From Phycisphaerae bacterium (GTDB lineage Bacteria; Planctomycetota; Phycisphaerae; UBA1845; UTPLA1): 64,000 nucleotides of DNA. The DNA lies in contig DATEMU010000007.1 of NCBI GenBank assembly GCA_035275405.1, forward strand, positions 1 to 64,000. Reading direction: 5' to 3'. The notes below the pieces were generated by a model. The model ran no database searches. It had not been told where the DNA came from and saw only the letters and a list, made by a program, of their open reading frames with translations. Of the stretch, positions 22,165-62,381 are shown piece by piece (the first letter of the stretch is position 1; the number at the start of each line of letters is the position of its first letter). Both the position numbers and the translations under genes were made by a program.

Positions 22165-22176
22165 AGGGGATTGCCC

Positions 22177-25100
22177 ATGAAAAAGAGATTCACCGCAGAG
22201 GCACAGAGCGTACTTAAGAAATGTACTCTCGGAGCCTCTGTGTCTCTGTGGTGTGGGACTTTCCTGTTTGTAGTCCCCAGTGGTATTGGCGCCGAGCCGC
22301 CGAAGTATGATCTTTCCAAAGACCGCGTCCTGTATTGCGTCGGCTATGCACACCTGGACACGCAATGGCGGTGGGACTATTGCACGACCATTGATCAGTA
22401 CATCAAGAACACCTTGGACGACAATTTTCAGCGGTTCGAGAAATATCCCGGCTACGTTTTTAATTTCACGGGCTCCGTGCGCTACGAGATGATGAAGGAG
22501 TACTACCCCGAGAAGTACGAGCGCCTGAAGAAGTACATCGCCGAGGGCCGCTGGTTCGTCTCGGGGTCGTCCGTCGACGAGGGCGATGTCAATGTGCCGT
22601 CCGCCGAGGCGACGATCCGCCAAGTCCTGTACGGCAACGAGTACTTCCGGCGGGAGTTCGGCAAGGAGAGCATCGACTTCATGCTGCCGGACTGCTTCGG
22701 CTTTCCGGCGTCCATGCCGTCCATCTGGGCGCACTGCGGTCTAAAGGGTTTCTCGACGCAGAAGCTCACCTGGGGCTCCGCCGTCGGGATTCCTTTCAAG
22801 ATCGGCGTCTGGGAAGGGCCGGACGGCAAGTCTGTCATCGCGGCCTTCGATCCCGGGCCATACGTCGGGGCAATCCAAGGACGCGTGGATACGAATGAGG
22901 AGTGGGTGAAGCGGGTTGAGGAAAACGGCCGCCAGTATGGCGTGTGGGCGGATTACCACTATTACGGCGTCGGCGACCAGGGCGGGGCGCCGCGCGAGGA
23001 GGACATCAAGAACTATCTCGCCAGCATCGGCAATGCGGACGGCAAGATTAAGGTGGCCCTCGTCGCATCGGACCAGATGTACAAGGACATTACGGCCGAG
23101 CAGGAAAAGCGGCTGCCGCGTTACAAGGGCGACCTGCTGCTGACCGAGCACTCCGCCGGGACACTGACTTCGCAGGCGTACATGAAGCGCTGGAACCGCA
23201 AGAACGAGCAACTGGCCGACGCGGCCGAGCGAGTTGCCGTCGCTGCGGACTGGCTCGGTGGGGCGGTCTATCCGCGCGAGAAGCTCAATCGTTCCTGGGT
23301 GCGGGCGCTCGCCAATCAGATGCACGATATTCTGCCTGGTACGAGCATTCCCCGCGCTTACACGTATTCGTGGAATGACGAGGTCGTGGCGCTCAACGGG
23401 TTTGCCGCCGTACTGAGCGACTCAGTCGGGGCGATCGTTCGAGCCATGGATACGCGCGGGAAGGGTACGGCGCTCGTGGTGTACAACCCGCTCGCCATGG
23501 ACCGCGAGGATCTTGTCGAGGCCGAAATCCTCTTCGACGAATTGCCGCCCAAGTCCGTACGAGTCTTCGATGGGACCGGCAAGGAGACGCCGTCGCAGAT
23601 TGTCGGCCGTGGCGATCGCGCGATTACGGTGCTGTTTGTTGCGCGTGCCCCCTCGGTCGGCTTGGCCGTGTTCGATGTGCGAGCGAGCGACTCGCCGAGT
23701 CAAATGAAAACGGGGCTTCGCGTCGCGGACGCCGAATTGGAGAATGAGCAATACCACGTCTCGCTGGACGGCAATGGCGACGTTTCATCCATTCGCGACA
23801 AGGCCAGTAGCGACGGTCGCGAACTCCTCGCCGCGCCGGCCCAATTGGTGTTCACGTATGAAAAGCCGCGCAACTGGCCCGCGTGGAACATGGACTGGGC
23901 CGATCGCCAGCAACCGCCGATCGATACCGTCCGCGGCCCCGCGAAGATTCAGATCATTGAAAAGGGGCCGGTTCGCGTCGGCATCCGCGTTGAGCGAAAG
24001 GCCCGTAATTCGATCATCGTGCAGGAGATCCGGCTCGCCGCGGGAGATGCCGGTCGGCGCGTGGAGTTCAGGACCGCCATCGATTGGCAATCGACGGAGT
24101 GCGCGCTGAAAGCGGCATTTCCATTGAAGGCCTCCAACCCGATGGCGACGTACAACTGGGGCATGGGCACGATCGAGCGCGGCAACAACGAGCCGACCAA
24201 GTATGAAGTGCCGTCGCATGAGTGGTTTGAATTGACTGACTACTCGGGTGAACATGGCGTCTCCATCCTTGAAGACTGCAAGTTTGGCTCGGACAAGCCC
24301 GTGGACCATATTGTGCGCTTGACGCTGCTCTACACGCCCGGCGTCCGCAAGGGCTACCTCGACCAGCACAGCCAGGACTGGGGGCGACACGACATGCTCT
24401 ACGCGCTCTACGCCCACGCGGGGGACTGGCGCAAAGGACAAAGTGAATGGCAGGGGCGTCGGCTCAATCAGCCGCTCGTGGCGTTTCAGGCGCCCATGCA
24501 CAACGGGCCGCTCGGCAAATCGTTCTCGATCGCGTCTATCGATCCCGGCGCGCCGGGACAAGTGGATATCCGCGCGGTAAAGAAGGCGGAGCAGGGCGAT
24601 TGGACCATTGTTCGCCTCCAGGAGCTTTGGGGACGCAAGGCCGAGGGCGTGACTGTCCGCTTGGGCACCGGAATAAAAGAGGCCCATGAAGTGGATGGGC
24701 AGGAGCGGCGGATCGGGGATGCCGTTGTTAAGGACGGAAAGCTCGTGACGAGCCTCTCTCCCAATAGCCCCCGAAGCTTTGCCGTTCGTTTGTCGGCGCC
24801 CGCTACGTCGCTCAAGCCGCCGCAGTGCATACCCGTAACCCTGCCGTTTGATCAGGATGTCGTAAGTTCGGATGCCAAACGTAGCGACGGTGCAATGGAC
24901 GCTGAGGGCCGCACCATGCCCGCCGAAATGCTGCCAAAGTCAATGACGAGCGAGGGCATCACTTTCGAGTTTGGTCCGACCGCCGATGGCAAGCCGCAGG
25001 CCGTGACCTGTCGCGGCCAAACGATCGCGCTGCCAGCGGGCGATTTCAATCGGATCCATCTCCTCGCGGCGGCGACTGAAGCTACAACGGGGCAGTTCGA

Positions 25101-26118
25101 TATTGACGGCCATCCGCATGAAGTGGCCGTCCAGTCGTGGACCGGCTTCGTCGGCCAGTTTGACGATCGCGTCTGGGATCGCTCGTTCGGCGAGGTGGAC
25201 TACGTCTGCGAGGGCAAGGTCGTGGGATTGACGCCCGGTTTCATCAAGCGCGACACCATTGCGTGGTTCGCTACGCATCGCCATCACCCGAAACTCGACA
25301 ATGAGGCCTACAAGTTCAGCTATCTGTACAAGTACGGATTCGACCTGCCGCCAAGCGCCAGAGAACTGCGCCTGCCCGACAACGAGAAGATCAAGATCCT
25401 CGCGGTCACGCTGGCAAAAAACGAAAACGACGCGGCACGGCCTGTTCAGCCGCTTTACGACGATTTTTCCAAGCGTGGCCCGCTCGAATTTCGCCATATC
25501 TATCCTCCGCCCCCGCCGCCCATCTACGACGGTCTCAAACCCATCGCCGCGGTGGCGATCGACCGGAAGCCCGCCTTCGACGCGCTGAGCATGGGTCCGC
25601 CTTCCGCCGCGGACGACACCGATCGATCGAAGGGCGGCCCAATGTTCGAGTTTCTCGATCGCGACGGCGAATTCTCGCCGCACTCCCGATCCGGCGCGGA
25701 CGGCCGCAGCCTGCCACGGCTCAACGACGGCCTGGCCGCCAACAACGACGACGACATCGAACATTGCGTCTGGTTCGACAATCAGGCCCGATTCTTTATC
25801 GACCTCAAGTCGAGCCGGCGACTCGAACGCATCAACACCTACTCCTGGCACAGCGCCAACCGCGCGCCGCAGTATTTTTCGCTTTGGGGTTGCAACGACG
25901 AGAAACTGCCGAAAGTCGATTTCGCACGGGGCGGTCACGGCGACTGGACGCTGATCGCCGTCGTGGATACTCGCCCGCTGGGTCAAGGCGAAATCCACGG
26001 CTCATCGGTTGCCGCCGCGACGGGCACACTTGGACCATTCCGGCATCTATTGTGGATCGTCGAAGAGTCCGCCCCCGGCACCTTCTTCACGGAGATTGAT
26101 GTTCATGCCGCCAAGTAA
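22177..26118 (+). CDS. Secreted GH38-family alpha-mannosidase
   Basis: A 1,313-residue exported glycoside hydrolase. The metal-binding YAHLDTQW (His59, Asp61) and the nucleophile segment MLPDCFGFP (Asp172) are the GH38 hallmarks; the middle and C-terminal beta domains of the family follow to about 890. The extra C-terminal 400 residues include a discoidin-like stretch (about 1180-1313, LERINTYSWHSANRAPQYF), possibly for carbohydrate binding. ATG 22177 is chosen because AGGGGA lies six bases upstream. Residues about 5-26 of the signal peptide are encoded by a palindromic repeat element (22191-22253), so the signal peptide looks recently recruited. It lies in an operon with a sugar importer. 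Confidence 0.9.
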   Translation: MKKRFTAEAQSVLKKCTLGASVSLWCGTFLFVVPSGIGAEPPKYDLSKDRVLYCVGYAHLDTQWRWDYCTTIDQYIKNTLDDNFQRFEKYPGYVFNFTGSVRYEMMKEYYPEKYERLKKYIAEGRWFVSGSSVDEGDVNVPSAEATIRQVLYGNEYFRREFGKESIDFMLPDCFGFPASMPSIWAHCGLKGFSTQKLTWGSAVGIPFKIGVWEGPDGKSVIAAFDPGPYVGAIQGRVDTNEEWVKRVEENGRQYGVWADYHYYGVGDQGGAPREEDIKNYLASIGNADGKIKVALVASDQMYKDITAEQEKRLPRYKGDLLLTEHSAGTLTSQAYMKRWNRKNEQLADAAERVAVAADWLGGAVYPREKLNRSWVRALANQMHDILPGTSIPRAYTYSWNDEVVALNGFAAVLSDSVGAIVRAMDTRGKGTALVVYNPLAMDREDLVEAEILFDELPPKSVRVFDGTGKETPSQIVGRGDRAITVLFVARAPSVGLAVFDVRASDSPSQMKTGLRVADAELENEQYHVSLDGNGDVSSIRDKASSDGRELLAAPAQLVFTYEKPRNWPAWNMDWADRQQPPIDTVRGPAKIQIIEKGPVRVGIRVERKARNSIIVQEIRLAAGDAGRRVEFRTAIDWQSTECALKAAFPLKASNPMATYNWGMGTIERGNNEPTKYEVPSHEWFELTDYSGEHGVSILEDCKFGSDKPVDHIVRLTLLYTPGVRKGYLDQHSQDWGRHDMLYALYAHAGDWRKGQSEWQGRRLNQPLVAFQAPMHNGPLGKSFSIASIDPGAPGQVDIRAVKKAEQGDWTIVRLQELWGRKAEGVTVRLGTGIKEAHEVDGQERRIGDAVVKDGKLVTSLSPNSPRSFAVRLSAPATSLKPPQCIPVTLPFDQDVVSSDAKRSDGAMDAEGRTMPAEMLPKSMTSEGITFEFGPTADGKPQAVTCRGQTIALPAGDFNRIHLLAAATEATTGQFDIDGHPHEVAVQSWTGFVGQFDDRVWDRSFGEVDYVCEGKVVGLTPGFIKRDTIAWFATHRHHPKLDNEAYKFSYLYKYGFDLPPSARELRLPDNEKIKILAVTLAKNENDAARPVQPLYDDFSKRGPLEFRHIYPPPPPPIYDGLKPIAAVAIDRKPAFDALSMGPPSAADDTDRSKGGPMFEFLDRDGEFSPHSRSGADGRSLPRLNDGLAANNDDDIEHCVWFDNQARFFIDLKSSRRLERINTYSWHSANRAPQYFSLWGCNDEKLPKVDFARGGHGDWTLIAVVDTRPLGQGEIHGSSVAAATGTLGPFRHLLWIVEESAPGTFFTEIDVHAAK
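22191..22253. repeat. Palindromic element encoding a signal peptide
   Basis: Left arm CACCGCAGAGGCACAGAG (22191-22208) and right arm CTCTGTGTCTCTGTGGTG (22236-22253) pair at 16 of 18 positions around a 27-base spacer. The arms match the copy at 62281-62373 closely. This copy lies inside the start of the mannosidase gene and is read in frame. Confidence 0.75.
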
Positions 26119-62262: not shown

Positions 62263-62280
62263 GCAACGTCTTTATGAATT

Positions 62281-62373
62281 AACCACAGAGACACAGATGC
62301 CCAGAGGATGGACGAGGAGGCTTTTGTTTTCTTCACAAAATACGTCGTCTCTGCGTCTCTGTGCCTCTGTGGT
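62281..62373. repeat. Palindromic element between convergent genes
   Basis: Left arm ACCACAGAGACACAGA (62282-62297) and right arm TCTGTGCCTCTGTGGT (62358-62373) pair at 15 of 16 positions around a 60-base spacer. It sits between two convergent stops (62262 and 62382) and could act as a two-way terminator. Confidence 0.75.
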
Positions 62374-62381
62374 GATCGTCT

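Follow-up and report, generated by a model that had tools for sequence, protein, structure and literature searches.

A palindromic element read in frame within the predicted signal peptide of a GH38 alpha-mannosidase, and its probable kinship with arm-bracketed GxxExxY nuclease genes

A GH38 alpha-mannosidase-type gene of a Phycisphaerae bacterium raises the question of how a hairpin-forming repeat came to lie within the codons of a predicted export signal. The gene occupies positions 22177-26118 (+) of the 64,000-nucleotide stretch of contig DATEMU010000007.1 analyzed here (the window) and is identified by profile matches (Glyco_hydro_38N, 5.5e-44; 38C, 5.4e-36). Six nucleotides before its ATG at 22177 stands a Shine-Dalgarno-like AGGGG (22166-22170, +; within AAGGGG), and its first 39 codons (MKKR...SGIGA; 22177-22293, +) form a predicted signal peptide, with export judged by hydropathy, not by a trained predictor. 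Sequence, folding and repeat searches place a palindromic element at 22189-22254 (+), in frame within the gene. Its left arm, CACCGCAGAGGCACAGAG (22191-22208, +), and its right arm, CTCTGTGTCTCTGTGGTG (22236-22253, −), are inverted repeats of each other that match at 16 of 18 positions and enclose a 27-nucleotide loop that contains no open reading frame. Each arm consists of two to three CRC[AG][GA]AG units starting TTCACC (22189-22208 and 22235-22254). The DNA fold of the palindrome reaches −16.8 kcal/mol, compared with −7.1 for shuffled sequence (z −5.0), and its RNA fold in context is similarly distinct from shuffles (z −5.3).

The arm recurs throughout the window and the genome. Five matches at ≤3 mismatches occur in the window, where 0.04 are expected, and across the 5.29-Mb genome the core CACAGAGNCACAGAG has 40 exact matches and its reversed-pattern control none; a genome-wide copy search with the 19-mer at ≤3 mismatches gave 82 matches, compared with three for the reversed control. 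These counts rule out chance similarity of the arms and, together with the arm pairing, bear out the initial annotation's description of a mobile-looking palindrome. The second, intergenic copy that it had reported is a dimer at 62280-62375 (unstranded), flanked by convergent genes. We recognized 57 element loci in the genome, about half of them pairs of arms and half single arms; the arms of dimers invariably face inward, at sizes mostly of 61-138 bp. Many copies are intergenic, some lying between convergent genes, and many have CGTC at the inner arm ends, a feature absent from the GH38 copy. The family thus has traits of a MITE, being short, with terminal inverted repeats, many copies and no transposase gene. 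Among 27 dimers examined for target-site duplication, the longest direct repeat averaged 2.9, compared with 2.4 in mismatched controls, and none stands out. The single-arm copy at 164-182 (−) of the window consists of a CACAGAG arm followed by a T-run and a GGAAC motif. Together with the single-arm copies at L054, L056, L065, L067, L068 and L080, it shares a common continuation of a second CACAGAG unit, a T-run and GGTGGAACAAGGCGGAAC repeats, and this continuation marks a second sub-family of single-arm copies.

As had been proposed, the element is read in frame from ATG 22177 and codes residues 5-26 (FTAEAQSVLKKCTLGASVSLWC) of the export signal, sitting between the start codon and the native signal-peptide end. 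The enzyme's N-terminus reads MKKRFTAEAQSVLKKCTLGASVSLWCGTFLFVVPSGIGA-EPPKYDLSKDRVLYCVGYAHLDTQWRW, with MKKRFTAEAQSVLKKCTLGASVSLWCGTFLFVVPSGIGA then followed by EPP, and the element contributes two extra lysines to this leader. When the signal was compared with and without the element, the maximum 10-residue hydropathy was 2.21 with codons 5-26 and 1.91 with them skipped, and the 15-residue value fell from 1.74 to 0.98, a drop which indicates that the element lengthens the hydrophobic core. By this prediction, the palindrome now encodes about half of the GH38 export tag.

Comparison with orthologous GH38 genes indicates what preceded the element. All orthologues with readable N-termini (L082, L084-L098) have signal-like N-termini of their own, such as MKTLTTRWLLLGALVASLLLAAPSYGEEPRYDLS, and none contains the insert; two of them (L084 and L089) share the same upstream permease gene end. 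Because the highest identity is 71% over the matched region, the comparison shows absence of the element rather than a precise DNA-level empty site at 22189. The parsimonious reading is that the element was gained in this lineage, inside a pre-existing signal peptide. The palindrome would then not have created export de novo; rather, an ancestral signal peptide appears to have been lengthened or remodelled. The earlier claim that the palindrome supplies the signal peptide therefore holds for residues 5-26 but not for the whole, since the ancestor already had one.

The GH38 gene is not the only one with such a leader. Another four of the genome's copies are translated in frame and read as export or lipoprotein signals at the N-termini of an amidohydrolase-like protein (C3:523758-523826; MNSSKTEDAPQRHRGTETKNRVLSLCLCASVVNLLYSSAPASA-QLA), a lipoprotein (C5:185978-186056; ...LCASVVSVFLFATG-C), a BatD-like protein with a GTG start (C7:73847-73918; assigned by inspection) and a peptidyl-prolyl-isomerase-like lipoprotein (C3:360560; ...VVSVSLCLCGEFGALLLAG-C; also by inspection). 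Elsewhere in the order, families other than this one contribute two more export-signal copies (L260 in genome G019 and L276 in G025). Orthologues of the amidohydrolase, at ≤80% identity, have element-free starts such as MTRRLHKPYAWLVLLASWSVSSVTPLPAAAQLAIRGETVYTMAG, and so do those of the isomerase (for example MKHASHSPRLLLTAACLGVLFIVGCERS). At the amidohydrolase and lipoprotein loci, no hydrophobic signal core is possible without element-coded residues.

This repeated use is probably explained by the coding properties of the arms, which are polar or basic on the left and hydrophobic on the right in every frame. Translated in three frames, the left arm gives FTTEAQRHR, SPQRHRDTE and HHRGTETQ (mean hydropathy −1.8 to −2.9) and the right arm LCVSVPLW, SVSLCLCGE and LCLCASVV (+1.3 to +2.8); in the GH38 gene the arms code FTAEAQS and, in the + frame, ASVSLWC. 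Judged by these translations, the element comes close to supplying an n-region and an h-region ready-made. The case for its preferring exported genes is no more than suggestive: 54% of window open reading frames are export-like under a lenient rule, a background against which seven exported products out of seven are weak evidence.

A candidate relative of the palindromes lies in the same genome, where a long arm pair (C3:470233-470860) with the same arms as the GH38 copy encloses a GxxExxY gene (TIGR04256, 5e-44; PF13366, 2.6e-43; PD-(D/E)XK). Because of this arrangement, we examined GxxExxY loci for flanking arms. Within the phylum, strong inverted repeats lie just outside the gene at 19 of 29 loci and at none of 29 distant positions. 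Among the 77 usable of 80 GxxExxY loci sampled across many bacterial phyla and some archaea, inverted arms bracket the gene at 48, the corresponding counts being 0 of 73 for distant controls and 4 of 77 for mismatched pairs; the motif is present on both sides of the gene at 51 of the 77, and about a third of the genes are without arms in the flank test. Arm variants around these genes follow ACC-R-CRRAG-N(0-3)-CRCRRAG, and the arm is often translated as the nuclease start (NHRDTETQR..., TAETQRTQR...). The exact arm motif is patchily distributed, in 78 of 392 genomes of the phylum, and the GxxExxY family occurs in 67 of those 78 genomes and in 117 of the 314 others (p 4e-15, a value that ignores kinship). 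In a structural model of the nuclease (pLDDT 91), the predicted fold is that of a restriction endonuclease, nearest to Cas4-type SSO0001 (Z 9.9; rmsd 2.9 over 97 residues), with Hjc and BglII at Z of about 7, and D78, E88 and K90 are invariant in 24 sequences, as a D...E-x-K motif. By modeled fold and motif, the GxxExxY partner is thus a predicted PD-(D/E)XK nuclease; no solved structure related to GxxExxY by sequence was found.

Several states of the element can be compared at a single orthologous intergenic site within the G442 genus. A complete GxxExxY element with AACCACAAAG arms is present there in G442 and G418. The G388 copy lacks 169 bp of its interior, G213 has an arm next to a short stretch without a gene, and in G376 and G277 a gene identified by inspection as coding for a four-helix bundle adjoins an arm left behind; in G130 the site is empty, at only 15 bp, and in more distant genomes it is 72-126 bp long and element-free. 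This site shows presence, absence and decay of the element at one place, the enzyme responsible being left aside. Elsewhere, L273 encloses an intact GxxExxY gene and L283 a broken one. Because the interiors of gene-less copies in the mannosidase genome are mostly unrelated to one another and to the nuclease gene, an origin by internal deletion is directly seen only in other genomes (G388, G213, L283). Many of the copies in G019 are nearly uniform palindromes of 148 bp that have inner sequence in common, a pattern that fits a family which has spread recently.

Several observations accompany these loci. The inner part of the G019 palindromes (L246-L272) is built of GGGATAAA/GGGACAAA units, and many of these copies lie just 5' of start codons. 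In G376 and G277 (L339 and L340, respectively, by locus), the four-helix-bundle element directly abuts the remaining GxxExxY arm, which gives the impression that one type of element inserts beside the other. S23-family genes of the phylum (PF05635, L286-L315) are themselves flanked by inverted short-unit arrays at 24 of 30 loci (0 of 30 controls), and these S23/IVP-family arrays use many units, among them AGTGGTT, GGTTTGTA and TAGGGGT.

Other explanations have to account for the same copies. If the element were a 5' untranslated insertion, with translation starting inside or after it, it would add little to the protein; an in-frame GTG at 22240 would still yield SLWCGTFLFVVPSGIGA, the G019 copies are often placed just before start codons, and a wrongly annotated start is a recognized pitfall where REPs lie close to N-termini (PMC3733652). 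The outcome named in advance as fatal to the in-frame claim was element-free orthologues with an aligned start, together with a true start downstream of 22253. The orthologues do lack the element, but there is no in-frame start just 3' of 22253, the next one being GTG 22240 within the element itself, and AAGGGG precedes ATG 22177. Moreover, GTG 22240 lies inside the strong hairpin (RNA −52.9 kcal/mol over a 121-nucleotide stretch) without a clear ribosome site, and starting there would forfeit the positive n-region yet keep element-coded residues, on which the signal cores of the amidohydrolase and the lipoprotein also depend. We consider an untranslated insertion unlikely. It is more doubtful still, to the point of being very improbable, that the palindromes are non-mobile RNA or terminator structures, conserved and arising or spreading by recombination, whose overlap with the signal is incidental. 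Their strong stem-loops (for the GH38 copy, DNA z −5.0 and RNA z −5.3), the many intergenic copies, some between convergent genes, and the lack of a target-site duplication would fit such structures; the patchy spread over 78 of 392 genomes, the gain in a single GH38 lineage, the near-uniform copies in G019 and the filled, deleted and empty states of one site would not.

Mobility could also have a different agent: an IS200/RAYT-type tyrosine transposase might mobilize the palindrome as a REP-like repeat, the GxxExxY genes being mere passengers. Such transposases are known to accompany REPs and TIRs, including repeats within genes (PMC3733652), and of the five Y1_Tnp matches in the genome, one (C8:102128-102469) has three palindromes around it in a span of 3.4 kb. 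The arms, however, track GxxExxY genes rather than Y1_Tnp, and the other four Y1_Tnp genes have no good arm nearby. At the C8 locus (L036 4111-4566; G000:C8:102111-102566), the IS200/RAYT-like transposase gene among the three CACAGAG palindromes has unrelated inverted repeats of its own, of the CCCAGGGTAGCCGCT type, and these different repeats rule out the RAYT as likely mobilizer. There is only a small chance that such a transposase moves the palindromes with the GxxExxY genes as passengers.

Since the arms are common to nuclease elements, and since elements come and go at an orthologous site, the palindromes are best read as gene-less, MITE-like relatives of those elements. We think it probable that the GH38 palindrome is such a gene-less member of the GxxExxY nuclease element family, inserted into an existing signal and kept for what its arms encode. 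A complete element would span ~430-630 bp, with a GxxExxY (PF13366/TIGR04256) nuclease gene between inverted arms of two to three CRC[AG][GA]AG units. The nuclease may recognize the arms, perhaps when they are folded into hairpins or cruciforms, and may move complete copies as well as, in trans, gene-less ones. One gene-less copy would have entered the existing GH38 signal-peptide region after the split from sequenced relatives, and its in-frame insertion would have lengthened the n- and h-regions while leaving the native cleavage region (GTFLFVVPSGIGA) intact. The encoded leader presumably works as a signal, and the insertion was probably tolerated and retained because, whatever the frame, its left arm is translated into polar or basic residues and its right arm into hydrophobic ones.

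Extended beyond this gene, the same data would describe a class of very small mobile elements in bacteria and some archaea, so far undescribed, in which a GxxExxY or S23-like gene lies between inverted arrays of 7-10 bp units, the nuclease moves complete and gene-less copies, and the palindromes act as portable signal peptides that repeatedly rewrite export signals; we give this broader proposal roughly even odds. The arm association ties a very common, long unexplained CACAGAG-type palindrome to a candidate mobilizing enzyme family of unknown role, a link open to biochemical testing. It also adds several orthologue-controlled cases of mobile DNA supplying a protein targeting signal in known enzymes, and makes the origin of new export signals directly studiable. 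If the broader proposal is true, GxxExxY and S23-like genes, which very many genome annotations list with no assigned function, are mobile-element genes. In the open-access literature, to which the search was confined, we found no description of the GxxExxY arm arrangement and no paper with the arm sequence; the papers found to mention GxxExxY describe, as far as read, no such arm-bracketed element, and none was found that connects four-helix-bundle proteins to both inverted repeats and mobile elements.

Several known systems resemble parts of this arrangement. Rickettsia palindromic elements, which are scattered through genes and intergenic regions as palindromes of ~100 bp and are translated in frame (PMC2229807), are the likeness drawn by the initial annotation. 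The element acts similarly, being likewise dispersed and read in frame, but membership in that family is unsupported: its relatives are CACAGAG-armed palindromes and GxxExxY elements of many phyla, its hosts are others, Rickettsia elements are 105-146 bp long and, as far as can be judged, differ in sequence. In the present family the arms accompany GxxExxY nuclease genes, and copies read in frame are N-terminal, as predicted export signals. The Yersinia YPAL/RU-2 MITE, which partly forms the signal peptide of YPO1552 (Delihas, PMC2229807), is likewise a small mobile element contributing part of a signal peptide; that element is unrelated, and the case concerns one putative protein of unknown function, whereas here a conserved GH38 enzyme and several proteins with element-free orthologues are involved. 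As far as can be judged, both are analogues from different families. MITEs share their termini with an autonomous element, and the same arms do bracket GxxExxY genes, whose autonomous movement is putative. In 23S rRNA intervening sequences with an S23 four-helix-bundle ORF, proposed to be mobile (PMC4990558), a small ORF also lies between inverted repeats forming a long stem, with sporadic distribution; the protein is another one and those sequences sit in rRNA genes, and the S23-family genes found here have arms of other short repeat units. The nearest described system is that of the REP and TIR families with RAYTs (PMC3733652). REP/BIME, REPIN and TIR repeats are short palindromes tied to one HUH enzyme family, RAYT or TIRYT (PMC3733652, PMC3116915), and share with the present family short palindromic repeats, inward dimers and an occasionally intragenic position. 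A single arm here is not self-complementary, as a 20-40 bp REP unit is required to be, the local RAYT-like genes are not flanked by arms, and the outer arm end carries no GTAG/CGTC tag; where REPs have a Y1 transposase, these palindromes are linked to a predicted PD-(D/E)XK nuclease.
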